Below are positions 10,049-19,947 of a DNA stretch of 25,517 bases, piece after piece. Every line of letters starts with the position of its first letter. The stretch's first letter is position 1. This DNA comes from a virus. The translations under genes and the position numbers were made by a program. Location of the stretch: positions 1-25,517 of the IMG/VR virus record IMGVR_UViG_3300045412_000325. The stretch is one strand, 5' to 3'. The notes beneath the pieces are model-generated. The model ran no database searches. It had not been told where the DNA came from and saw only the letters and a list, made by a program, of their open reading frames with translations.

Positions 10049-10909
10049 TTACGTACCCCATGCATTTTTAAACAGAGGCACCTGTAATCTATCGCTGTAT
10101 CTGTAGCCCATCTTCATGGCCAGTTCCGCCACTGTTTTGTTGTGCATGTGATACACACTCTCCACCCCGCCCACGGGCATGAGATATACCGATCCCGTAA
10201 ATCCATGTTTCTTGTAATCTTTCACTGCTTCTATGGCCTCATAGGCATCATCCATATCAGCAATCACAAATTTCAAATACACATGACCCACTTCACCATA
10301 TTCTGCAACTACTTCAGGCAGTATGGCTTCTTCCTTCTTCTCTCCGCTCACACTCAATTTCGCACTCACAGAGAATGTTATGGATTCTCGGCTTCTAACA
10401 TTTTTCTTGCTCCATTGGGAGAGATAATCTTTGAAATCTCGGTGTAACTTTTGTGTGCCATTGGTTTCAAAAGTGATCTCCTTTAGATCCTGCATCTTCG
10501 CATGCTCCAACACATCTGGATATGATCTCTGCCAACCCAACAATGGTTCACCGCCTGTGAATATAAAATGTTCATCCACCCATCGTTTGTGAGGCAATAT
10601 CTCCATTGTTCTTTCCACGATGGCGTCGCACGTCAGCATGGGAGATAAATCTTTGAATCTCGGATCCCACGATGCATATGAATCACAGCCTGTGTTCACC
10701 AAAGGTAATTCTTTGTAATCTTTGAATGGATGCAGTTTGTGTTGCTCAAACACTCGATCATGCTCATCACTCCTCATGCCTCTGGGCAATCCGAAACCGG
10801 AACAAGTGAAGTTGCAGCCAAATGTTCTCAGGAACACCGAAGGCACACCCATGTAGCGACCTTCTCCTTGTATGCTGTAAAATAGTTCCGCTACCTTAAT
10901 TTTGCTCAT
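10049..10909 (-). CDS. queE: QueE-like radical SAM 7-carboxy-7-deazaguanine synthase with long insertion
   Basis: Homologue of 7-carboxy-7-deazaguanine synthase, which converts carboxytetrahydropterin to CDG with S-adenosylmethionine and a [4Fe-4S] cluster. The N-terminus AELFYSIQGEGRYMGVPSVF is diagnostic, and FTGGEP at 117-122 is the SAM-binding motif. The cluster cysteines look unusual: C32 and C36 (GCNFTC) are as expected, but the third lies at C75 (NTGCDSYASWDP), giving CX3CX38C instead of CX3CX2C. At 286 residues it is longer than typical bacterial QueE (~210-225). The ATG lies 14 bases inside the end of the repeat mini-protein, with GAGG upstream. With FolE, the QueD-like protein and DpdA it forms a 7-deazaguanine DNA-modification set. 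Confidence 0.88.
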   Translation of the reverse strand: MSKIKVAELFYSIQGEGRYMGVPSVFLRTFGCNFTCSGFGLPRGMRSDEHDRVFEQHKLHPFKDYKELPLVNTGCDSYASWDPRFKDLSPMLTCDAIVERTMEILPHKRWVDEHFIFTGGEPLLGWQRSYPDVLEHAKMQDLKEITFETNGTQKLHRDFKDYLSQWSKKNVRSRESITFSVSAKLSVSGEKKEEAILPEVVAEYGEVGHVYLKFVIADMDDAYEAIEAVKDYKKHGFTGSVYLMPVGGVESVYHMHNKTVAELAMKMGYRYSDRLQVPLFKNAWGT

Positions 10910-11105: not shown

Positions 11106-11495
11106 CTATTTCTTATCTTTTTTGTCTAATCTAACCACGTTGCCGCTCTTGAAATGGCCCACGGTCTCTCTCTGTATGTCATCGTGGTTGAATTCTGCCC
11201 AATAGAGCTCAAAGGCCACCCCATCTTCCATGCCCTCGAACGAATGCATCAATCCCGGCTTGACCCTGGTGAAGTCTCCAGGTCCCAATATGGTTTCGTC
11301 TATGAGATCGTAGTCCTTCTGCCAGACTCGTATCTTCATACGGCCGCTGACCACGTAGAAACCGTTCCATTTGTACTGATGCTTGTGTTTGGAGCAGACG
11401 CCACCTGCCTTGAAATCTATCCTGTGGAATTCCAACACACCATTGGCGTGTATCAACTCCGTCTGCCCCCAAATTTTTCCTGCCTTGTTGCTCAT
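11106..11495 (-). CDS. cupin-domain protein
   Basis: A 129-residue single-domain cupin. Motif 1 includes HKH (H37, H39) and the following strand NGFYVVSGRMKI. Motif 2 is GPGDFTRVKPGLMHSF with H84. The usual Glu of motif 1 appears replaced (Asn44), so metal binding may be altered. Small cupins of this kind include sugar-phosphate isomerases, epimerase-like enzymes and dioxygenases; here it could act on a nucleotide sugar with GalE and the glycosyltransferase, but this is inference. The start codon follows the -10 box of a strong promoter by six bases with no ribosome site, predicting a leaderless mRNA. The Lys/Asp-rich end (RLDKKDKK) is disordered-looking. Confidence 0.78.
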   Translation of the reverse strand: MSNKAGKIWGQTELIHANGVLEFHRIDFKAGGVCSKHKHQYKWNGFYVVSGRMKIRVWQKDYDLIDETILGPGDFTRVKPGLMHSFEGMEDGVAFELYWAEFNHDDIQRETVGHFKSGNVVRLDKKDKK

Positions 11496-11548: not shown

Positions 11549-12190
11549 TTATCCTACCAATTTCCTATCCAATTTCCTTGCCAGGTAGGCCAGCAATAGG
11601 CCATAGGCCGGCACGAACACAACCTGTCCCACTATGATCTTGACCATGGTGTTGTTGAAGGCCACCGCATGCACCCACGGTTGTGGATAGAACGCAGTGT
11701 AGAAGAATATGTAGGTGTCTATGACGTTGGCAGCTATCATGCTCAGCGCCGGTGCCGCCCACCAATTATTTTTATATTTTTCTCTGATCATCTGGAACAC
11801 ATACACATCCAACAGTGTGCCGATACCATAGGCCACTCCCGATGCTATGCCCACTCTGTAGGCGTGCTTGTCGCCCAGATATAAGAGCACCAGTACCGAT
11901 GCCACGATGGCCGGTACGATGGCCAACGCAACCACTGCCCTTGCGCTCTGCTTACCGATCAATCTCACAGTGAGGTCGCTTGCCACCACCACCAGCGGAA
12001 AGGTGAATGCCGCCGCTGCCAGGGGAAAGTTGGTCTCCCACCCCAATATATTGATCTTTTCCGCGAACAAACTGAATCTTATAGTAACCAAGTAATTGCT
12101 CACAGCGATAATGATCGTGTGCAATATCACAAGGTTCCTGACCAATATCTTGTCCGTGCCTTTCAAAAGGTCCTGTACAAACTGTATCAT
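11549..12190 (-). CDS. yhhQ: YhhQ/QPTR-type queuosine precursor transporter
   Basis: A 213-residue integral membrane protein with about six hydrophobic segments. These include LVILHTIIIAVSNYLVTIRF near the N-terminus, FPLAAAAFTFPLVVVASDLT, AVVALAIVPAIVASVLVLLY and VKIIVGQVVFVPAYGLLLAY at the end. The sequence around FPLVVVASDLTVRLIGKQSA and the later APALSMIAANVIDTYIFF match the vitamin-transport-like YhhQ family, which imports preQ0/preQ1 in bacteria. A phage copy beside queE, folE and dpdA suggests it supplies deazapurine precursors to the infected cell. The ATG has AGGAG nine bases upstream. Its C-terminus ends in basic residues. Family assignment is fairly firm; the substrate is inferred from context. 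Confidence 0.85.
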   Translation of the reverse strand: MIQFVQDLLKGTDKILVRNLVILHTIIIAVSNYLVTIRFSLFAEKINILGWETNFPLAAAAFTFPLVVVASDLTVRLIGKQSARAVVALAIVPAIVASVLVLLYLGDKHAYRVGIASGVAYGIGTLLDVYVFQMIREKYKNNWWAAPALSMIAANVIDTYIFFYTAFYPQPWVHAVAFNNTMVKIIVGQVVFVPAYGLLLAYLARKLDRKLVG

Positions 12191-12209: not shown

Positions 12210-12677
12210 TCATTTTTGCCATTCTTCCCATGGAAAAACCACCCATTGCGGATTTTCTTTTTTGTCTATCTCATAACCAAAATAGTCAACTTTTACTGGG
12301 GAAGGCCTGTTGTTGATAACCACCGCAAACTTAACTCTGTCATGTCGTCCGAAATTGTCCAAGATATATTGGAAGGTGGCTCCGGTGTCATTTATGTCAT
12401 CTATGATCAATATTTTTTTCTGGAAAGCGAATGCTTTCTCCAATGCCGACAGATTGGGCTTGGCGGCGTTATCCCTCAATCTCACATCCAAGACAGCATG
12501 TTCCTTCTTCAACCTGTGGGAAAGGTAAACTCCCGGAACGCAACCACCTCGGTTGATGCCCAGCAAGATATCAGGCAGCCACATGTCATGCACCAACTTG
12601 TCCTCTATCTGTATCAGTGCGTTGCGCATCTGTATGTTGGTGAAATATAATTTTTGCACAGTCATGTTATTTTCCAT
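12210..12677 (-). CDS. PRTase-family phosphoribosyltransferase
   Basis: A 155-residue type I phosphoribosyltransferase. The PRPP-binding motif ILIIDDINDTGATF spans residues 89-102, preceded by the PPi loop region LLGINRGGCVPG (38-49). The fold and size resemble xanthine/hypoxanthine-guanine phosphoribosyltransferases, which join a free purine base to PRPP. The start at 12677 lies within the last codons of guaC (11-base overlap) with AGGG upstream; a second ATG four codons in is possible. Next to GMP reductase it points to purine salvage: recovering free guanine released by DpdA base exchange is an attractive but unproven role. Confidence 0.82.
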   Translation of the reverse strand: MENNMTVQKLYFTNIQMRNALIQIEDKLVHDMWLPDILLGINRGGCVPGVYLSHRLKKEHAVLDVRLRDNAAKPNLSALEKAFAFQKKILIIDDINDTGATFQYILDNFGRHDRVKFAVVINNRPSPVKVDYFGYEIDKKENPQWVVFPWEEWQK

Positions 12678-13710
12678 CGAACACCCTGTTGATCACGTTG
12701 TTCACCCTCACGAAGTGTGCGCACTTGGGCATGTCTTTGATTCTTCTTGCTCCTATGTATGTGCAGGTGCTTCGCACACCGCCCAGGATCTGTTCCACGG
12801 TGTCCTTGACAGGACCTCGGTCATCCAATAAAACTGTTTTGCCTTCGGTGCCTCTGTAGCCATCTTTTCTCATTCCGTGTTTCTCGAACGCTGATTCTGA
12901 GCTCATGCCATAGAACACTCGCTTGCCGTCTCGCAGTTCCAGTTCCGATTCGTCATGTGCTGCCAGCATGCCTCCCAGCATCACGAAATGCGCCCCGGCC
13001 GCCAGGGCCTTGGCCACGTCACCGGACTGAGTGCAGCCACCGTCAGCTATGATGTGTCCACCCACCCCGTTAGCAGCGTCAGCGCACTCCACTATGGCGG
13101 AAAACTGTGGCACTCCCACTCCGGTTTGTGTCCTAGTGGTGCAAACCGATCCAGGACCTATTCCTATCTTGACCACGTCCGCTCCGTTGATGATCAATTC
13201 CTCTGTCATTTCTGGTGACACCACGTTGCCCGCTATCAGCACCTTGTCCGGATACTCCGACCTTATCCTCTTGACGAAGTCCACGAACTGCTCATGGTAT
13301 GCATTGGCCACATCCACAGTGATGGCTGGTATGTCCGGAAATGCCTGCATCACCTGTTTTAATGTTTGATAGTCTTGCGTCTGCTCGTCCCATATGGCAC
13401 CAGTGCCCACGCAGGCCGACACATATTTGAATTTCATTCCTGTGCCCGCTGTGTTCTTCCAATCCTGGAATGTGTAATGTTTTCGTATCACTGTCAGCAT
13501 CTTGTAGTGCTGTAACACCCTGGCCATGCTGAACGTGCCCACTCCATCCATGTTGGAGGCCATGATCGGAGTGTACGAAAGTTGTTTCTTGCTGTTGCGG
13601 AAAGTAAAATCTCTAGTAATATCCACATCTCTGCGGCTGTTCAGGGTGGATCTCTTTGGCTTCAGCAGCACATCCGAATAATCCAGATGTATGTTGTAAT
13701 CAATTCTCAT
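12667..13710 (-). CDS. guaC: GMP reductase
   Basis: A 347-residue protein of the IMPDH/GMP reductase TIM-barrel family, without the CBS domains found in IMPDH. The catalytic loop GIGPGSVCTTR lies at 183-193 with Cys190 as nucleophile, followed by QTGVGVPQ. IIADGGCTQSGDVAKALAAG and MLGGMLAAHDESELE match the phosphate-binding and flap regions. The length equals that of Escherichia coli GuaC. It converts GMP to IMP with NADPH, moving guanine nucleotides toward adenine nucleotides. The start overlaps the end of the preceding gene, and the PRTase gene overlaps its stop. In a DNA-modifying phage it may lower or rebalance the guanine pool; this role is inference. Confidence 0.9.
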   Translation of the reverse strand: MRIDYNIHLDYSDVLLKPKRSTLNSRRDVDITRDFTFRNSKKQLSYTPIMASNMDGVGTFSMARVLQHYKMLTVIRKHYTFQDWKNTAGTGMKFKYVSACVGTGAIWDEQTQDYQTLKQVMQAFPDIPAITVDVANAYHEQFVDFVKRIRSEYPDKVLIAGNVVSPEMTEELIINGADVVKIGIGPGSVCTTRTQTGVGVPQFSAIVECADAANGVGGHIIADGGCTQSGDVAKALAAGAHFVMLGGMLAAHDESELELRDGKRVFYGMSSESAFEKHGMRKDGYRGTEGKTVLLDDRGPVKDTVEQILGGVRSTCTYIGARRIKDMPKCAHFVRVNNVINRVFDGK

Positions 13711-14029
13711 CGACCTCTTCCTCTCTGCTTCTGCACATCTTTAATATATTTTGATAATGCTCCCAGGCCTGTTTCAGCGCAGGATATTTTTCATACAATT
13801 CAAACTCGTAATTCCTAAGAGCTGTTGAGCTCCACCCATCATAGGACACAGTGAAAGATGTTGCCGCGGTGCCGCTGCCCACGCCCTGCGGCAATACCGA
13901 GTTTGGATTCACTGAGAAAATACCAGGAATGTGCACTGCTCCGGTCTTGGGATCAAGATATCCCGGAGATGTTTGATTCTCCAATTCGGGAAATAGAGGA
14001 CAGGTGCTGACTGTTGAGCTGTTAACCAT
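13700..14029 (-). CDS. small hypothetical protein
   Basis: A ~109-residue protein. The ATG at 14029 (MVNSSTVSTCPLF) is preferred over an in-frame GTG at 14038; both overlap the end of folE. The first 75 residues are Ser/Thr/Gly/Pro-rich and beta-like (DPKTGAVHIPGIFSVNPNSV). The C-terminal part is a helix with YEFELYEKYPALKQAWEHYQ, a style common in small T4-like phage proteins. There is no enzymatic motif. It sits between folE and guaC and overlaps both, so it is co-expressed with the purine genes. Function unknown. Confidence 0.65.
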   Translation of the reverse strand: MVNSSTVSTCPLFPELENQTSPGYLDPKTGAVHIPGIFSVNPNSVLPQGVGSGTAATSFTVSYDGWSSTALRNYEFELYEKYPALKQAWEHYQNILKMCRSREEEVDEN

Positions 14030-14774
14030 TGGGACCACACTGAGTTTCTTGTAATTGAATGTTGTGCATGAATTCGTTCTTCAATGCGGGATCGTTTTTC
14101 AACAGACCTTTCAGAACAGTGGTCTGTGTGCTGGAGTTTATGCTCCTAATGCCCCTGTTCTCGCAGCAGCCATGCCTTGCCCTGATGTACACTCCCACCG
14201 CCGGACTCTCTGTGAGCTGTGATATCTTGTATGCTATCTTCTCTGTTAATTCTTCCTGCAGATGTCCGCGAGCTGCCTGATGTTGTGCTATCCTCGTGTA
14301 TTTGCTCAATCCGATCAACCTCTTGCCTGGCAGGCAGCCAATGTAGCACACTCCTGTGACGGGTTGATGGTGATGCGAGCACATGCTCCTGATGTCGGAC
14401 CTTATCACGATCAGTTGATCATAACGACCATCCTCGTTGGGAAAAGTTGTGACTTCGGGCGCGGGATTGTACCTGCCGCCCATTATCTCAGTGATGTACA
14501 TCTTGGCCAATCTCCTGCCCGTGCCTGCACTGTTGGGATCATTGGTCCTATCTATTATCAGACTGTCTAGCACTGCATCGAACTTCGTGGTCAATTCATC
14601 GATGAGTTTTTCTCTCTCGCCTTCTTGTATGTACTTGCTGATGTTATCTGCCGCAAAGAATCTCTCTCCTGCCTTGACGATTCTTTCGCGTATCTGTTGG
14701 CTGACAGGCTTATTTTTGTCCACCCATGTGTCCATCAAACCTTGTACCACGGGGTCTTTATTAATGTCGCTCAT
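14022..14774 (-). CDS. folE: GTP cyclohydrolase I
   Basis: A 250-residue FolE. The zinc site is visible as MCSHHHQP (C132, H134, H135) and C203 in RHGCCENRG, matching C110/H112/H113/C181 of the E. coli enzyme. GLSKYTRIAQHQAARGHLQE (155-174) and SSTQTTV (214-220) are further signatures. It converts GTP to 7,8-dihydroneopterin triphosphate, the first step of both folate and 7-deazaguanine synthesis. The ATG overlaps the galE stop (TGATG). The N-terminal ~40 residues form the usual helical extension. In this setting it most likely feeds queuosine-type base synthesis, as in other phages with DpdA and QueE. Confidence 0.92.
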   Translation of the reverse strand: MSDINKDPVVQGLMDTWVDKNKPVSQQIRERIVKAGERFFAADNISKYIQEGEREKLIDELTTKFDAVLDSLIIDRTNDPNSAGTGRRLAKMYITEIMGGRYNPAPEVTTFPNEDGRYDQLIVIRSDIRSMCSHHHQPVTGVCYIGCLPGKRLIGLSKYTRIAQHQAARGHLQEELTEKIAYKISQLTESPAVGVYIRARHGCCENRGIRSINSSTQTTVLKGLLKNDPALKNEFMHNIQLQETQCGPNG

Positions 14775-15766
14775 CAGTTCAAATCTTTTCTGTTGATCTT
14801 GTTATACCATTTTACAGCAGTCTGCACTATGTTGTCAATAGAACTATGCTTGGGTTCCCAACCCAATTCCGTTTTTGCACGTGTGGTATCGGCCACCAGT
14901 ACCGGGGGATCTCCTGCTCTGCGATCCATTTCCGCGATCTTTATGTTGCCCACATATTTTTTGATGGTTTCCAATAATTGCCTGTTGCTGGTGCTGACAC
15001 CAGATCCCAGATTATATCGCTCACAGATCACATCGCCCGATGCACGTTGAAGGGACAATACATGCGCATTGGCGAGATCGGTCACATGCACATAATCCCT
15101 CACACAGGTTCCGTCTGGAGTGTCAAAGTCAGTGCCAAACAACTTGAATTCTCTGTTGTGATATGCTGCTTCTATGGCCAGTGGTATGATGTGTGTTTCA
15201 TCCTCTCTCAGTTCGCCTATTTCGCTGTCAGCATCTGCCCCTGCTGCATTGAAATATCTCAAGCTCACACTGCTCAATCCATAGGCCACATAATAATCTT
15301 TCAGTATGTTCTCCACCATCAATTTGCTCCTGCCATAGGGATTGATTGGTTGCAGATTGGTCTCTTCGTCGTCGGCTATGCCATTTCGGGGAATGCCGTA
15401 GACTGCCGCGCTGGATGAGAACACGAACTTGTTAACACCTGCCTCTCTCAACCGATCTAATAGTTGCACAGTCATTATCACGTTGTTCTTGTAATATTTA
15501 GATGGATCTCGCACCGACTCTCCCACTTGTGTGTGTGCGGCGAAATGTATGCAAGAATCTATGTTGTATCTGTGAACTATTTCTTTTAGGAAATCTATAT
15601 CTCTAGGCAAGTGGCATTCAAATGCCGGACCATATTGTGTGGCCCATGGTTTGGTCTTTATATCACGGTCCACTACCACGGGAGTGAAACCATTTTTTGT
15701 CAGTTCCTTGGCAGTGTGTGAACCAATGTAACCGGCCCCTCCCACAACCAGCACTGACTTGTTCAT
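14774..15766 (-). CDS. galE: UDP-glucose 4-epimerase (GalE-like)
   Basis: The start is taken at the ATG at 15766 (MNKSVLVVGGAGYIGSHTAK), four bases after the stop of the glycosyltransferase. A longer frame from 15814 would overlap that gene and put 16 unrelated residues ahead of the Rossmann strand. The 330-residue protein has the NAD-binding GGAGYIG loop, FSSSAAVYG with the catalytic Ser, NPYGRSK containing the catalytic Tyr/Lys, and CVRDYVHVTDLA typical of GalE. It interconverts UDP-glucose and UDP-galactose (or GlcNAc forms). With the glycosyltransferase just upstream it probably supplies a sugar donor for decorating a phage or host structure. folE follows by a one-base overlap. Confidence 0.9.
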   Translation of the reverse strand: MNKSVLVVGGAGYIGSHTAKELTKNGFTPVVVDRDIKTKPWATQYGPAFECHLPRDIDFLKEIVHRYNIDSCIHFAAHTQVGESVRDPSKYYKNNVIMTVQLLDRLREAGVNKFVFSSSAAVYGIPRNGIADDEETNLQPINPYGRSKLMVENILKDYYVAYGLSSVSLRYFNAAGADADSEIGELREDETHIIPLAIEAAYHNREFKLFGTDFDTPDGTCVRDYVHVTDLANAHVLSLQRASGDVICERYNLGSGVSTSNRQLLETIKKYVGNIKIAEMDRRAGDPPVLVADTTRAKTELGWEPKHSSIDNIVQTAVKWYNKINRKDLN

Positions 15767-15770
15767 GCCT

Positions 15771-16949
15771 TTAATATTTGCTTTCGGATGCGGTGTTTCT
15801 ATAATGCCTGCCATCTCTCCTCCACTGCTCGCCCTTGCCCATCATGATGTCAATCATCCTATCAATGGTGCCATCGGTCCAGTCGGATATCTGTCCCATG
15901 TTGGCGGATGGTCGAGATAATAATGTTTTTAATTTTTCCATTGCGTCTCTGCCACTCCATGGCACGTACATCCTGGTCTCATCATTGGCAAAGGTCTCTG
16001 GGAATGATCTATACGCTGGGAACAGCACATTGCAGCCCAGTGTGTCTGCCTCTGATACTGTGTTGGACACCCAATCTTGCAGGGCACAGTTGAACAACAC
16101 TCTGGTGTCATTCAATAGTTCATAATAATCATTTTTTTTTAGGTTCTCATAGATTTTTAATGTACCTGCCTCGGCCATCATCCTTACTCGATTAACATAG
16201 ACAGGATTGTTGGACCTCAAGGGTCCCCCACAGAATACGGCAAATTCCACAGCGGGCAAAGTTTTGTTTGCATGCCATTGTTCTATCAGATCCATGAAGA
16301 ATCCAGGTTGTTTCTCCTGATCCCATCTGGCAGCAAATCCAACTCTGCGAGATCTTTGCTCAAATGGTTTGATCTTTTTGACTCTTTCCAGCACTTCTGC
16401 CTTGCCATAACTCAATCCAGATATGTTATAGATAGGAGCCCGCCAATTCGCTATCCTCATATGGGCCACCATCTCTTCATTGGTTGCAAGAATATGCACA
16501 TTGGGTATCTCATTACACATCTGTTCATATAGGCTCATCCACCGGCTCATGCCCCAAACATGTACGAAATCATCCGGGTCTATGGCCTGCGCCAGACATC
16601 TTAGATAGATCCTTGGCCTGTATTGTTCTGGAGATTGTTGTATGATATAAGGCAGTGATTCCATGCCCGGTTGGAACATGTCCTCAAAGAATATCACGTC
16701 ATCTGATGTGATTTCTCCCGCTTTCATCATCCGAACCAGATTCATCATTTGACTCATGCCAAAATAACTTCTCCCATGGGCGTCTAATACCTGTCCTGTC
16801 ACTATCGCTTTGGAATTATCTATAGTGGTGCCCGGAACGATCACATAATTTATACCACGTCTTTTATATACTCGTTCGGTCCAATCTGTCAATTGGAAAG
16901 TATATCGTGCCTGATAACTTTCAAGGCCCATATAAAATAATTTTCTCAT
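15771..16949 (-). CDS. GT-B-type glycosyltransferase
   Basis: The start at 16949 (MRKLFYMGLESYQARY) has AAGGAAC upstream; an upstream in-frame start at 17015 would overlap the previous gene and has no ribosome site. The ~392-residue protein has two Rossmann-like halves. The second begins near RRVGFAARWDQEKQPGFFMD, and contains the donor-side segment YYELLNDTRVLFNCALQDWV followed by SNTVSEADTLGCNVLFPAYR, the pattern of group 1 (GT-B) enzymes. The acceptor is unknown. galE starts four bases after its stop, so donor and transferase are made together. The target could be virion proteins, a host glycan or modified DNA; nothing in the sequence decides this. Confidence 0.75.
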   Translation of the reverse strand: MRKLFYMGLESYQARYTFQLTDWTERVYKRRGINYVIVPGTTIDNSKAIVTGQVLDAHGRSYFGMSQMMNLVRMMKAGEITSDDVIFFEDMFQPGMESLPYIIQQSPEQYRPRIYLRCLAQAIDPDDFVHVWGMSRWMSLYEQMCNEIPNVHILATNEEMVAHMRIANWRAPIYNISGLSYGKAEVLERVKKIKPFEQRSRRVGFAARWDQEKQPGFFMDLIEQWHANKTLPAVEFAVFCGGPLRSNNPVYVNRVRMMAEAGTLKIYENLKKNDYYELLNDTRVLFNCALQDWVSNTVSEADTLGCNVLFPAYRSFPETFANDETRMYVPWSGRDAMEKLKTLLSRPSANMGQISDWTDGTIDRMIDIMMGKGEQWRRDGRHYRNTASESKY

Positions 16950-16978
16950 TTGTTGTTCCTTTTTATTAATTCTTTGTA

Positions 16979-16991
16979 GGGTTACAAACCC
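16979..16991 (-). promoter_or_regulatory. short hairpin in the gap before the glycosyltransferase
   Basis: Minus-strand GGGTT-TGT-AACCC is a perfect 5-bp stem in the 55-base gap between two genes. There is no U-tract after it, so it is not a standard terminator; it could be an RNA-processing or stability element. It is weak evidence. Confidence 0.3.
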
Positions 16992-17004
16992 ATGTAAAAT
17001 ATTT

Positions 17005-17364
17005 TCATCGAGCAACCTTTGCTAATTTAACGCCACCATCACTGGTGTGTTTGATATCATAATCACATTTCGCTCGGAGATGCAGCCAGGTCCTGATCTT
17101 TTCATCTCGTACAAACAGGGTGACAGTGTCTTCCATGTCATCGTTGTAGCCGTGATAGGCCCAGATGAAATCCTTGCCATAGACGTAGCCAGCACTGCCC
17201 ATCATGGTGCACACATTGGCCACAGCATCCACGAACGTGTAGTCGGCATTGAGTGCTCCGCCACCTATGGGAAGATAACCTTTCCTTCGGGTCAGCGTCT
17301 TGACCGGCACGTTGACTTCTATTTTAACCTCTGAGGTATTCTGTTTTCGACCCATTTTCTCCAT
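17005..17364 (-). CDS. small hypothetical protein
   Basis: A 119-residue basic protein with a beta-rich N-terminus (SEVKIEVNVPVKTLTRRKGY), a central segment (NADYTFVDAVANVCTMMGSA) and a charged end. No family recognised. It overlaps the end of the QueD-like gene by 41 bases; a second ATG at 17355 with GGAG just upstream may be the true start. It lies between the QueD-like gene and the glycosyltransferase, so it is in the deazaguanine block by position only. Confidence 0.65.
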   Translation of the reverse strand: MEKMGRKQNTSEVKIEVNVPVKTLTRRKGYLPIGGGALNADYTFVDAVANVCTMMGSAGYVYGKDFIWAYHGYNDDMEDTVTLFVRDEKIRTWLHLRAKCDYDIKHTSDGGVKLAKVAR

Positions 17365-17746
17365 CTTCTGATACCTCTATTGTTATTCTCCTGCCTGGAA
17401 AACTTTCTATGATAGCAAGATATAGGTCATCCGATATCATTTCGCAGCTCTTGTTATCCAAGGACAACGTGTTCTCTGTGTATAATTTCTCCAACCATCT
17501 CTTGAACTGTATGAATTCTATGTCTCTGTCGTGGTGGAACACCTCTATCTCCACCCGGAAATGGAACATGTGCCTGTGCGGATGTCCCAGGAAGCTCACG
17601 TCATACTCGTCGCCTGTGGCCAATTTGGGATCCGTCAGCGCCGCGGGATATTTGTGTATGCCTTCCTTGCGGAAGGTGACCCAGATCCTCTTTTCGCTAA
17701 GGTTTAACTTCTCTCTCAATGCCTGTGATCTGTATGCCTCAATCAT
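17324..17746 (-). CDS. QueD/PTPS-fold protein with altered catalytic residues
   Basis: A 140-residue T-fold protein resembling 6-carboxytetrahydropterin synthase. The three zinc ligands appear conserved: H31 in KEGIHKYP (like FxAAHRL) and H57/H59 in PHRHMFHFRVEIEV (like HGHxxxVxV). DIEFIQFKRWL matches the VIDFxxLK segment. SCEMISDDL (E102) and IEVSED (E127) match the substrate-binding Glu positions. However, the catalytic Cys four residues before HxH is Leu53, and the LDH Asp-His pair reads LDN (His to Asn97). This suggests a QueD relative that no longer does the standard reaction; a decarboxylase acting on CDG (DpdL-type) is one possibility, from context. Its ATG overlaps the previous stop (ATGA). 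Confidence 0.62.
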   Translation of the reverse strand: MIEAYRSQALREKLNLSEKRIWVTFRKEGIHKYPAALTDPKLATGDEYDVSFLGHPHRHMFHFRVEIEVFHHDRDIEFIQFKRWLEKLYTENTLSLDNKSCEMISDDLYLAIIESFPGRRITIEVSEDGENGSKTEYLRG

Positions 17747-18279
17747 TTTATGATCTCATCCTTGCCATATTGACCCCAATCTGTGAATCCTGCCTTGTCT
17801 TTGAAGTCTCGCATGCTCATGGTCCACACGCCCGGATTGCTATGCCGGAAAGCCACGTCGTCGATCTTGATATGCAATTGCTTGTCATCGTCGCTGTCTC
17901 GGAATATGATCGAGCAGAATGGTATGAACTTGGGCTCGTTCCATATCAATGCAAATCTTTTTTTAACTTCCTCATGATCTGCATAGGGATAATCAATTGT
18001 GACATAATAACCATTGTCTAATAATTTTTTTATTTGGAAAACATGTGTGCCTATAGTGTATTTGAATGTCCTGTTGGCACCATAATACACTGCCTCGCAA
18101 CCGTTCAGCGTGGCCAGTTCCAATACTTCGTCAGTGTGCAATTCGTTAGTGGCCAAGAACAATGTTCTTTTACCATATGCCATGGTGTGCTCAATTTCTA
18201 TACCTGTAAATACCTTTACTAAGGTATTGTCAAAATGACCTGTGGCATAATCTCTGTGCATATTGTGTAATTGTAGCAT
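17743..18279 (-). CDS. hypothetical protein in the DpdA-QueD block
   Basis: About 178 residues when read from the ATG at 18279 (MLQLHNMHRDYATGHFDN). An in-frame TTG at 18297 is less likely as a start and neither has a clear ribosome site. The N-terminal half has an alpha/beta look (RTLFLATNELHTDEVLELAT, then LNGCEAVYYGANRTFKYTIG). The middle has IKKLLDNGYYVTIDYPYADH, and the C-terminus is acidic-aromatic. I recognise no family. Its stop overlaps the start of the QueD-like gene and it follows the YdcH-like gene, so it is in the same unit as dpdA and is a candidate accessory to base modification. An 8-bp hairpin lies inside the coding region (18209-18228). Confidence 0.68.
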   Translation of the reverse strand: MLQLHNMHRDYATGHFDNTLVKVFTGIEIEHTMAYGKRTLFLATNELHTDEVLELATLNGCEAVYYGANRTFKYTIGTHVFQIKKLLDNGYYVTIDYPYADHEEVKKRFALIWNEPKFIPFCSIIFRDSDDDKQLHIKIDDVAFRHSNPGVWTMSMRDFKDKAGFTDWGQYGKDEIIK

Positions 18280-18299
18280 AATAAAGTTATCAGTCAAGA

Positions 18300-18501: not shown

Positions 18502-19947
18502 TTATGCTCCTTCGAATAGTGAACTGAAATTATTCTTGCCCTTGCCTCCACCTGTGGCCCTCTGCCATCTGGTTCCCCTGAGATCTGCAAGGAATGACGT
18601 GGTAGAACTGATCAATTCCATGGGTTTCGCAGACTTGAACAGCTCTTCAACAAATGTGTTGAAATATAAAATATTACGTGGAACGAAATCACTCATTTGA
18701 TCCGTGTTGTCTGAATCTTTGATCTTTCTCCAATGTTTGACCTCGGGTTGATGCTTGATGGATTCTATGTCATTCATGTCATTGGCAATCTGTACCGCTC
18801 TGATATGATTGTAAACATTGTGTGCCATCATTAATACATAACTGAAACTGTCCCAAGAGGTCTTGCCTTCCTTGTTGTTTTTGTTTAGGTCGCCTTCTCC
18901 ATACCAACAAACATCTCCCATGTTCAATCTGTTTCCTATGGCAGATTTGAATGGGAATGGTATGGTGCTGCCTTTCAATCTCCTGTCATCTGGTGCCTTC
19001 TCCATGATGTAACTCCATCTCTTTGGAGTGAATAGATTATGCGTGTAGACCAATCCATTGGCTGTGCTTAAGAAAGCAGATGCAGAATCAAAACTGATTG
19101 TGACGTCTGGATTTACATGTTTCCTTAACTGTCTCTGTATCTGTGTTAGGAAACAAGCCCAGTCCAGTTGTGATGTGCCCAGCACGTGTATCCAATTTTT
19201 TTTATCTAATTTTTTCTCATCTCTCATTATGATCAATCTTTTTAATAGCACTTCCATGTCGCACATGTTGATTCCTCCCATTGCCCAACCTTCGAACTCG
19301 AAATCTTTGATGGCATTATACCATGTTTGTGCTGTCTCCCAGTCGTCGCCCTGCAACACGTTTAGAAATTTTGTATGTCCCAGCCTATTCTTTTGAAAAA
19401 ATTTGTTGTTGTAGATTGTGCCATTTAGTGTATCTTCGAAACTTTTCAATCCTGTTTTTGGAGAATTAAGGTCATCCGCCGCCCAGGTCGGCACGTCCAA
19501 TGTCATTGACCAATCCGCGGTGAGCTCCAACCAATTCAAAATATCTGATCTAGTTTTATTGGCTTTGTTGCCTTCGAAATCCTTCCAATCAAAATTTATG
19601 ACGCCCTTGCCTATCTGGTATCCACCAGAGTCTCCAACTATTATGGAAAAATCCCTATCTCTCTGCACGCACATGCTGTCAGCAACAGGGGCCTTGCTAA
19701 CCTCCAGGCACGCATGTCCCGCCGAGTACAGTCCCACATCATAGGTGAAATATCCCTTTTCCGGATTGAGAAAGTTCAATCCTTCCACATTGTTTTCAAA
19801 AGCCGCTGGTATCCTTTCCTTGGGTATGTGATCACCTTTTGCTCTCTGTTTGCTAATGAAAGTGTTGTAGAAGTTGGATATGGCTGGCAAGAACTTGGCG
19901 AAGTCCCTGTTCAAAGGTGCCAGATGTTCTTGCCTGTGATCTGCCAT
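18502..19947 (-). CDS. dpdA: DpdA-like DNA 7-deazaguanine transglycosylase (TGT family)
   Basis: A 481-residue member of the tRNA-guanine transglycosylase superfamily resembling phage DpdA, which swaps guanine in DNA for a 7-deazaguanine base. TGT-like motifs appear in order: DSGGYQ (106-111, the substrate-binding Asp region), LDVPTW (150-155), VLQGDD (197-202), GWAMGG (220-225), HVLGTS (254-259) and TISFDSASAF (283-292) holding the candidate nucleophile Asp287. The C-terminal Cys/His zinc site of tRNA enzymes is not evident, consistent with a DNA rather than tRNA substrate. The start codon overlaps the sliding-clamp stop (TAATG), so modification enzyme and clamp are co-translated. With folE, queE, the QueD-like gene and yhhQ in the same array, DNA modification is the natural reading. 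Confidence 0.82.
   Translation of the reverse strand: MADHRQEHLAPLNRDFAKFLPAISNFYNTFISKQRAKGDHIPKERIPAAFENNVEGLNFLNPEKGYFTYDVGLYSAGHACLEVSKAPVADSMCVQRDRDFSIIVGDSGGYQIGKGVINFDWKDFEGNKANKTRSDILNWLELTADWSMTLDVPTWAADDLNSPKTGLKSFEDTLNGTIYNNKFFQKNRLGHTKFLNVLQGDDWETAQTWYNAIKDFEFEGWAMGGINMCDMEVLLKRLIIMRDEKKLDKKNWIHVLGTSQLDWACFLTQIQRQLRKHVNPDVTISFDSASAFLSTANGLVYTHNLFTPKRWSYIMEKAPDDRRLKGSTIPFPFKSAIGNRLNMGDVCWYGEGDLNKNNKEGKTSWDSFSYVLMMAHNVYNHIRAVQIANDMNDIESIKHQPEVKHWRKIKDSDNTDQMSDFVPRNILYFNTFVEELFKSAKPMELISSTTSFLADLRGTRWQRATGGGKGKNNFSSLFEGA

Follow-up and report, generated by a model that had tools for sequence, protein, structure and literature searches.

A QueD-like phage paralog with a rebuilt active site is proposed to decarboxylate 7-carboxy-7-deazaguanine

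The window analyzed here is a whole stretch of 25,517 nt from a viral record (IMG/VR IMGVR_UViG_3300045412_000325). It contains an open reading frame at 17746..17324 on the minus strand that translates to 140 aa. The original prediction, which did not state the strand, read the product as a QueD-fold protein that keeps the zinc ligands and has lost the catalytic Cys and His. What reaction would such a protein carry out? We refer to it as QLP (QueD-like paralog). Its best family match was phrog_17812 (1.2e-34), which PHROGs lists as unknown function. The sequence matched no curated family in Pfam or NCBIfam, and it did not match the Pfam PTPS family PF01242 at E values up to 1.

QLP is one of many consecutive minus-strand genes. 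Between the DpdA-type gene and the phosphoribosyltransferase gene, adjacent genes share 1 to 89 nt or sit no more than 2 nt apart. QLP overlaps its upstream neighbor (the 184-aa gene) by 4 nt and its downstream neighbor by 41 nt. The epimerase gene shares 44 nt with the glycosyltransferase gene and 1 nt with FolE. The gene order is a clamp, the DpdA-type enzyme, a 96-aa ORF, the 184-aa protein, QLP, a 119-aa protein, and the glycosyltransferase. It continues with the epimerase, FolE, a 112-aa protein, GMP reductase, the phosphoribosyltransferase, YhhQ, a cupin, and QueE. The main features are as follows.

18502..19947, minus strand: DpdA-type DNA guanine transglycosylase (TGT superfamily; profile A3 and TGT-like motifs)
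17743..18297, minus strand: 184-aa protein (stop overlaps the QLP start by 4 nt; no family match)
17324..17746, minus strand: QLP, proposed 7-carboxy-7-deazaguanine (CDG) decarboxylase (phrog_17812, T-fold model, 12 invariant residues in 157 relatives)
15771..17015, minus strand: GT-B-type glycosyltransferase (best match of profile A4 a glycosyltransferase, E 3.8e-5; weak Pfam glycosyltransferase matches)
14774..15814, minus strand: NAD-dependent sugar epimerase, GalE-like (Pfam Epimerase, 1.1e-54)
14022..14774, minus strand: FolE, GTP cyclohydrolase I, the first step from GTP (Pfam GTP_cyclohydroI, 8.6e-37)
12667..13710, minus strand: GMP reductase, GuaC (NF003470, 468 bits against a cut-off of 397)
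12210..12677, minus strand: purine phosphoribosyltransferase, xanthine/guanine type (Pfam Pribosyltran, 1e-12)
11549..12190, minus strand: YhhQ-type transporter, preQ0/deazapurine uptake type (Pfam Vut_1, 5.7e-20)
10049..10909, minus strand: QueE (phrog_2076, QueE-like radical SAM, 2.4e-49)

The 25.5-kb fragment contains no QueD of its own; a QueD, if present, lies outside it. In a PDB profile search, the family of the DpdA-type protein (profile A3) matched tRNA-guanine transglycosylases at E 1e-4 (45 of 46 chains). It has the TGT-like motifs DSGG-Q, LD-P, LQG, and HxLG, plus an invariant D287. The best NCBIfam match of the phosphoribosyltransferase was xanthine phosphoribosyltransferase (8.7e-9), below the cut-off of that model. 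Searches of Pfam, PHROGs, and NCBIfam with the 184-aa protein found nothing. Its model (pLDDT 87) had no PDB structure match below E 0.06 and no informative fold. An alignment of 25 sequences of its family shows 18 invariant residues, and a relative lies near QLP in 118 of the 157 QLP loci, with a median gap of 22 bp.

The AlphaFold2 model of QLP (44 sequences) had a pLDDT of 94 and a beta-beta-alpha-alpha-beta-beta T-fold. Its best matches among solved structures were PTPS/QueD proteins (Pyrococcus horikoshii PTPS and Escherichia coli QueD), with Z of about 11 and rmsd of 2.2 to 2.7 Å over 94 to 109 residues. An hhalign comparison of the QLP and QueD families gave 95% probability (E 2e-8), with a path shifted by about three residues near the HxH motif. 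A comparison of profile A2 with solved structures gave only weak bacterioferritin matches, judged to be chance, and PTPS 2dj6 at E 0.54. From the model, we are confident that QLP has the QueD/PTPS T-fold, as originally predicted.

Residues were paired using two MAFFT alignments of QLP with E. coli QueD (query sequence identical to PDB 4ntm) and the QueDs of QLP-bearing loci. Both place H31, H57, and H59 on H16, H31, and H33 of QueD, the zinc triad. The substrate glutamates are also retained, with E102 opposite E86 and E127 opposite E110, and L53 stands opposite the catalytic C27. All three of these pairings had been anticipated. The string HxFxxRxEI is common to both families (HSFMVRLEI in QueD, HMFHFRVEI in QLP) and supports this register. 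The D70-H71 pair of QueD faces either T90-E91 or a gap, depending on the alignment, and has no firm counterpart. The original prediction had placed an Asp-Asn97 there. It was right that no conserved His occupies that position in the QLP family, but the Asn is residue 98, its pairing is not firm, and it varies among relatives (Y in 66, H in 49, F in 18, and others). Neither alignment places a Cys and a His as in QueD. QLP probably binds zinc at H31, H57, and H59, judging from these alignments.

Conservation was examined in 157 relatives from IMG/VR, isolated phages, and genome contigs, including the window itself. Identity to the window QLP goes down to 30%. Twelve residues are invariant: H31, L53, H57, H59, F61, R74, E77, F78, S100, C101, E102, and E127. 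Four others (H71, R58, D128, and E130) change in one or two of the 157, with H71 kept in 156. Columns 49 to 56 are free of Cys throughout the family, and L53 is present in 157/157. Both Cys101 (157/157) and Arg74 are new relative to QueD. Because the 12 residues are invariant down to 30% identity, the site appears to be a working, selected one and not that of a decaying pseudoenzyme. At the level of sequence, the active site is rebuilt, not decayed. The paralog has lost Cys and His at the QueD positions; it has acquired an Arg, a His, and a Cys that adjoins the substrate Glu. The predicted loss of the catalytic Cys and His thus holds for those positions, but the family has an invariant Cys101 and a near-invariant His71 elsewhere. 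In a FastTree phylogeny, 44 QLP sequences form one clade apart from the QueDs; local support was just 0.67, so we do not count this clade as strong evidence.

The family is large. One IMG/VR scan yielded at least 578 confirmed encoded relatives, a second query gave 42 matches, and 23 came from bacterial or archaeal genome contigs. A scan of the viral contig set with the QLP of phage phiST found no relative. The hosts are very diverse across the isolated phages, the prophages, and a Magnetospirillum locus. It is the C-terminal part of a longer protein in Vibrio phage Bakedbeans and Chryseobacterium phage MA9V-3 (L007 11254-12405; L011 11431-12312). The N-terminal part of the MA9V-3 fusion looks HNH-like by eye.

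QLP is accompanied by a QueD. Each of 11 representative isolated QLP phages encodes a separate PTPS-family protein, ten over the Pfam cut-off and one weak. QueD was also found in 10 of 12 large IMG/VR contigs bearing QLP. The QueDs of QLP loci that were aligned keep C27, D70-H71, and both glutamates. QLP is a paralog of QueD and not the phages' own QueD.

The remaining pathway genes are also present. QueE was found in 11/11 isolated QLP phages. A DpdA-type enzyme was found in 10/11, five with each of two subfamily profiles. The first profile matches tRNA-guanine transglycosylases in PDB, and the second detects 9g and CAjan, which have known DpdAs and served as positive controls. Neither profile detected a DpdA in MA9V-3. 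A DpdA-type relative lies near QLP in 129 of the 157 loci. Of the 81 loci whose flanks reach 7 kb or more on both sides, 80 contain FolE, QueE, QueD, or DpdA, counting same-strand neighbors only. Many of these contigs are related, so the 81 loci are not 81 independent events. At the remaining locus (L151), a second-type DpdA-like ORF and YhhQ adjoin QLP. The most compact set, in two Amycolatopsis prophages, consists of DpdA-like, QLP, QueD, QueE, and FolE genes beside terminase-like genes.

Several sets have other arrangements. Magnetospirillum contigs of up to 1.4 Mb (L142, L143, L144, L145, and L149) contain GT-QLP-DpdA-QueD sets, which may reflect a prophage or chromosomal defense use. Directly upstream in L142 and L144 is a gene whose product has a CoiA-type nuclease-like domain (domain scan of L142). 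A Methanosarcinales METP1 contig (L152 2880-7454) has QueD, QueE, FolE, an unknown gene, a linalool dehydratase-like gene, and QLP, followed by a possible methyltransferase. No DpdA was found there, and this set may serve a small-molecule or RNA pathway.

No QueC above the cut-off was found in 10 of the 11 isolated QLP phages, nine of which had no match at all. The QueC-like match of X1 was weak, below the cut-off, and reads as NadE. The exception is Vibrio phage D479, which has QLP plus a divergent QueC-family protein. This protein (L159 411-1214) has no standard SGG-DS loop and matches PF06508 in its C-terminal part only (32.8 bits). An ORF beside it is probably nicotinamide phosphoribosyltransferase-like, judged by eye. 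Four of the 12 large contigs had weak PP-loop (QueC) matches, and the weakest best match (G010) was below the cut-off. By reading, the PP-loop proteins of three contigs were rejected as QueC: two are NadE-type, and one is an unassigned PP-loop protein. The QLP phages thus have FolE, QueD, QueE, and DpdA without QueC, with the exceptions of D479 and, for DpdA, MA9V-3.

The contrast phages 9g, CAjan, Dp-1, and nt-1 carry QueC (180 to 251 bits). They use the same FolE-QueD-QueE-DpdA logic for DNA modification, and in such phages QueC takes CDG to preQ0 (PMC6884629). None of the four, nor Mycobacterium phage Bipper, has QLP, while four QLP phages were positive in the same search. Bipper has no QueC. 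Its gp4 (L162 2047-2472) is a 141-aa protein with an LHFH motif between DpdA and QueD, the position held by QLP in the Amycolatopsis prophages. It may be another divergent T-fold by eye, but a search with the QLP profile did not pick it up. The closest QueE relatives show a similar contrast. Flavobacterium phage immuto has a QueE 76% identical to that of phiST and an annotated QueF-type protein. It has no QLP match, while phiST has QLP. Phage phi38:2, reported as 7-deazaguanine modified (PMC11515303), has QueC and QueF.

Two candidates for the decarboxylase other than QLP were considered. No UbiD decarboxylase over the cut-off was found in the 20 QLP genomes searched. The cupin of the window (11106-11495) was ruled out; it occurs in only 7 of the 157 loci.

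We consider it likely that QLP is a neofunctionalized QueD paralog acting as a zinc-dependent CDG decarboxylase, giving 7-deazaguanine for insertion into DNA by DpdA. This role is the most likely because the family is almost always beside genes that make CDG and insert it into DNA. The context of FolE, QueD, QueE, and DpdA with no QueC, together with the lack of QLP in phages that carry QueC and 7-deazaguanine modification, agrees with the new chemistry on a pterin or deazapurine first suggested for this protein, and with its candidacy for a DpdL-like role, also raised in the original prediction. Here, we infer the substrate, the reaction, and the roles of individual residues.

QueD holds a bicyclic pterin with its amino-oxo edge on a Glu and its side chain at the zinc, and its product carries a carboxylate. 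CDG offers a matching edge together with a 7-carboxylate, and a QueD copy stripped of the carbon-carbon lyase residues, with Arg74 and Cys101 added, could place that group at the zinc. In the proposed route, FolE, QueD, and QueE would make CDG from GTP. QLP would bind CDG as QueD binds the pterin, with the guanine-like edge on Glu127 and perhaps Glu102. The 7-carboxylate would be directed to the metal on His31/His57/His59, with Arg74 aiding. CO2 would then be released, and a general acid (candidates are Cys101, Glu77, and His71) would protonate C7. The roles of Arg74 and Cys101 are guesses. A DpdA-type transglycosylase would exchange the 7-deazaguanine into DNA, in place of the QueC-derived preQ0 bases. 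The putative pathway thus runs GTP, FolE, QueD, QueE, CDG, QLP, 7-deazaguanine, DpdA, DNA. Among free base, nucleotide, and base in DNA, the free base would be the presumed substrate. A cofactor-free lyase reaction may suit a metal-binding T-fold of roughly 120 residues.

Plain decarboxylation does not explain the frequent glycosyltransferase and phosphoribosyltransferase partners. A relative of the GT-B glycosyltransferase lies near QLP in 138 of the 157 loci, and an epimerase relative does so in 47. In the window, overlaps couple the glycosyltransferase to the GalE-like epimerase and FolE, which hints at a sugar-bearing base. QLP may instead do other chemistry on CDG, such as readying C7 or the carboxylate for a sugar added by the glycosyltransferase, so that the DNA base would not be plain dDG. 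The new invariant Cys101 and Arg74 are also consistent with this. However, phiST, RHph_I1_18, Ahp1, D479, Bakedbeans, MA9V-3, and the Amycolatopsis prophages keep QLP with no glycosyltransferase relative found at the locus. The role of QLP is therefore seemingly independent of the glycosyltransferase, and we regard other chemistry on CDG as unlikely. There is a similarly small chance that the end product of the operon is a 7-deazaguanine in DNA that carries a sugar. In that case, QLP would remove the carboxyl group and so expose an electron-rich C7. Once DpdA had inserted the base, the epimerase-fed glycosyltransferase would add a sugar at C7 or at another position. We know of no report of sugar-bearing 7-deazaguanine hypermodification of this class in DNA.

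QLP could also decarboxylate at a later stage, acting on dCDG in DNA or on a CDG nucleotide made by the phage phosphoribosyltransferase. Tubercidin synthesis uses TubE (CDG phosphoribosyltransferase), TubD (GMP reductase), and TubF (UbiD decarboxylase). Its phosphoribosyltransferase takes CDG, not 7-deazaguanine, and decarboxylation is placed after this step (PMC6112128). The phosphoribosyltransferase and GMP reductase genes of the window are side by side (12210-12677 and 12667-13710), as in tubercidin/toyocamycin clusters. They could supply purine nucleotides, consume them, or produce deazapurine nucleotides. A phosphoribosyltransferase occurs in only 66 of the 157 QLP loci, GMP reductase in 21, and a YhhQ relative in 16. 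Action on a nucleotide would thus not be general, given the first two counts, and a free base would seem a more fitting substrate than DNA for a small QueD-related T-fold. Decarboxylation at either later stage is quite unlikely.

QLP shares its fold, zinc triad, and substrate glutamates with QueD, as would be expected if it replaced or supplemented QueD as a pterin enzyme at that step, and PTPS-III enzymes have a Glu in place of the Cys. However, a QueD with catalytic residues intact where aligned is already present in 11/11 phages (one weak) and 10/12 contigs, and the invariant L53 cannot act as an acid or base, which makes a second pterin enzyme very improbable. A noncatalytic subunit or regulator of QueD or DpdA, suggested by the missing QueD Cys and His, is hardly credible against 12 invariant residues, mostly at zinc and substrate positions, that resemble a working site in 157 relatives.

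The proposed CDG decarboxylase is closest to QueD (PTPS-I; E. coli 4ntk/4ntm) and archaeal PTPS (2dtt), which have the same T-fold, three zinc-type His, and two substrate Glu. Its pathway neighborhood is common to QueD as well. It differs in the invariant Leu in place of Cys27, in the lack of a conserved Asp-His, in the invariant Cys101 and Arg74 and near-invariant His71, and in coexisting with a true QueD. TubF of tubercidin synthesis is proposed to remove the carboxyl of a CDG derivative, as QLP would, but it belongs to an unrelated family with a prFMN cofactor (PMC6112128). QLP is absent from the QueC phages, and QueC from the QLP phages apart from the divergent protein of D479.

DpdL was reportedly predicted as a phage CDG decarboxylase by Cui and colleagues in 2023. 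It is expected to act downstream of QueE, either ahead of DpdA or together with it, in phages that lack QueC, and the QLP context agrees. The NCBIfam matches include no DpdL model. The QLP family is likely DpdL, as matched on role and gene context. The CDG decarboxylase role was thus probably already predicted by others. What may be new is how large the family is, which residues mark it, and that it has a glycosyltransferase partner.

The strong signature that phrog_17812 gains from this work is H31, L53, H57, H59, R74, E77, S100-C101-E102, and E127. It covers a family of at least several hundred IMG/VR relatives. The link to the glycosyltransferase points to possible further DNA modification. 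The predicted CDG decarboxylation is directly testable in the cultured phages phiST, ACP17, PA5oct, and Paride. If the proposal is right, a T-fold enzyme would have been turned from a pterin lyase into a purine decarboxylase.
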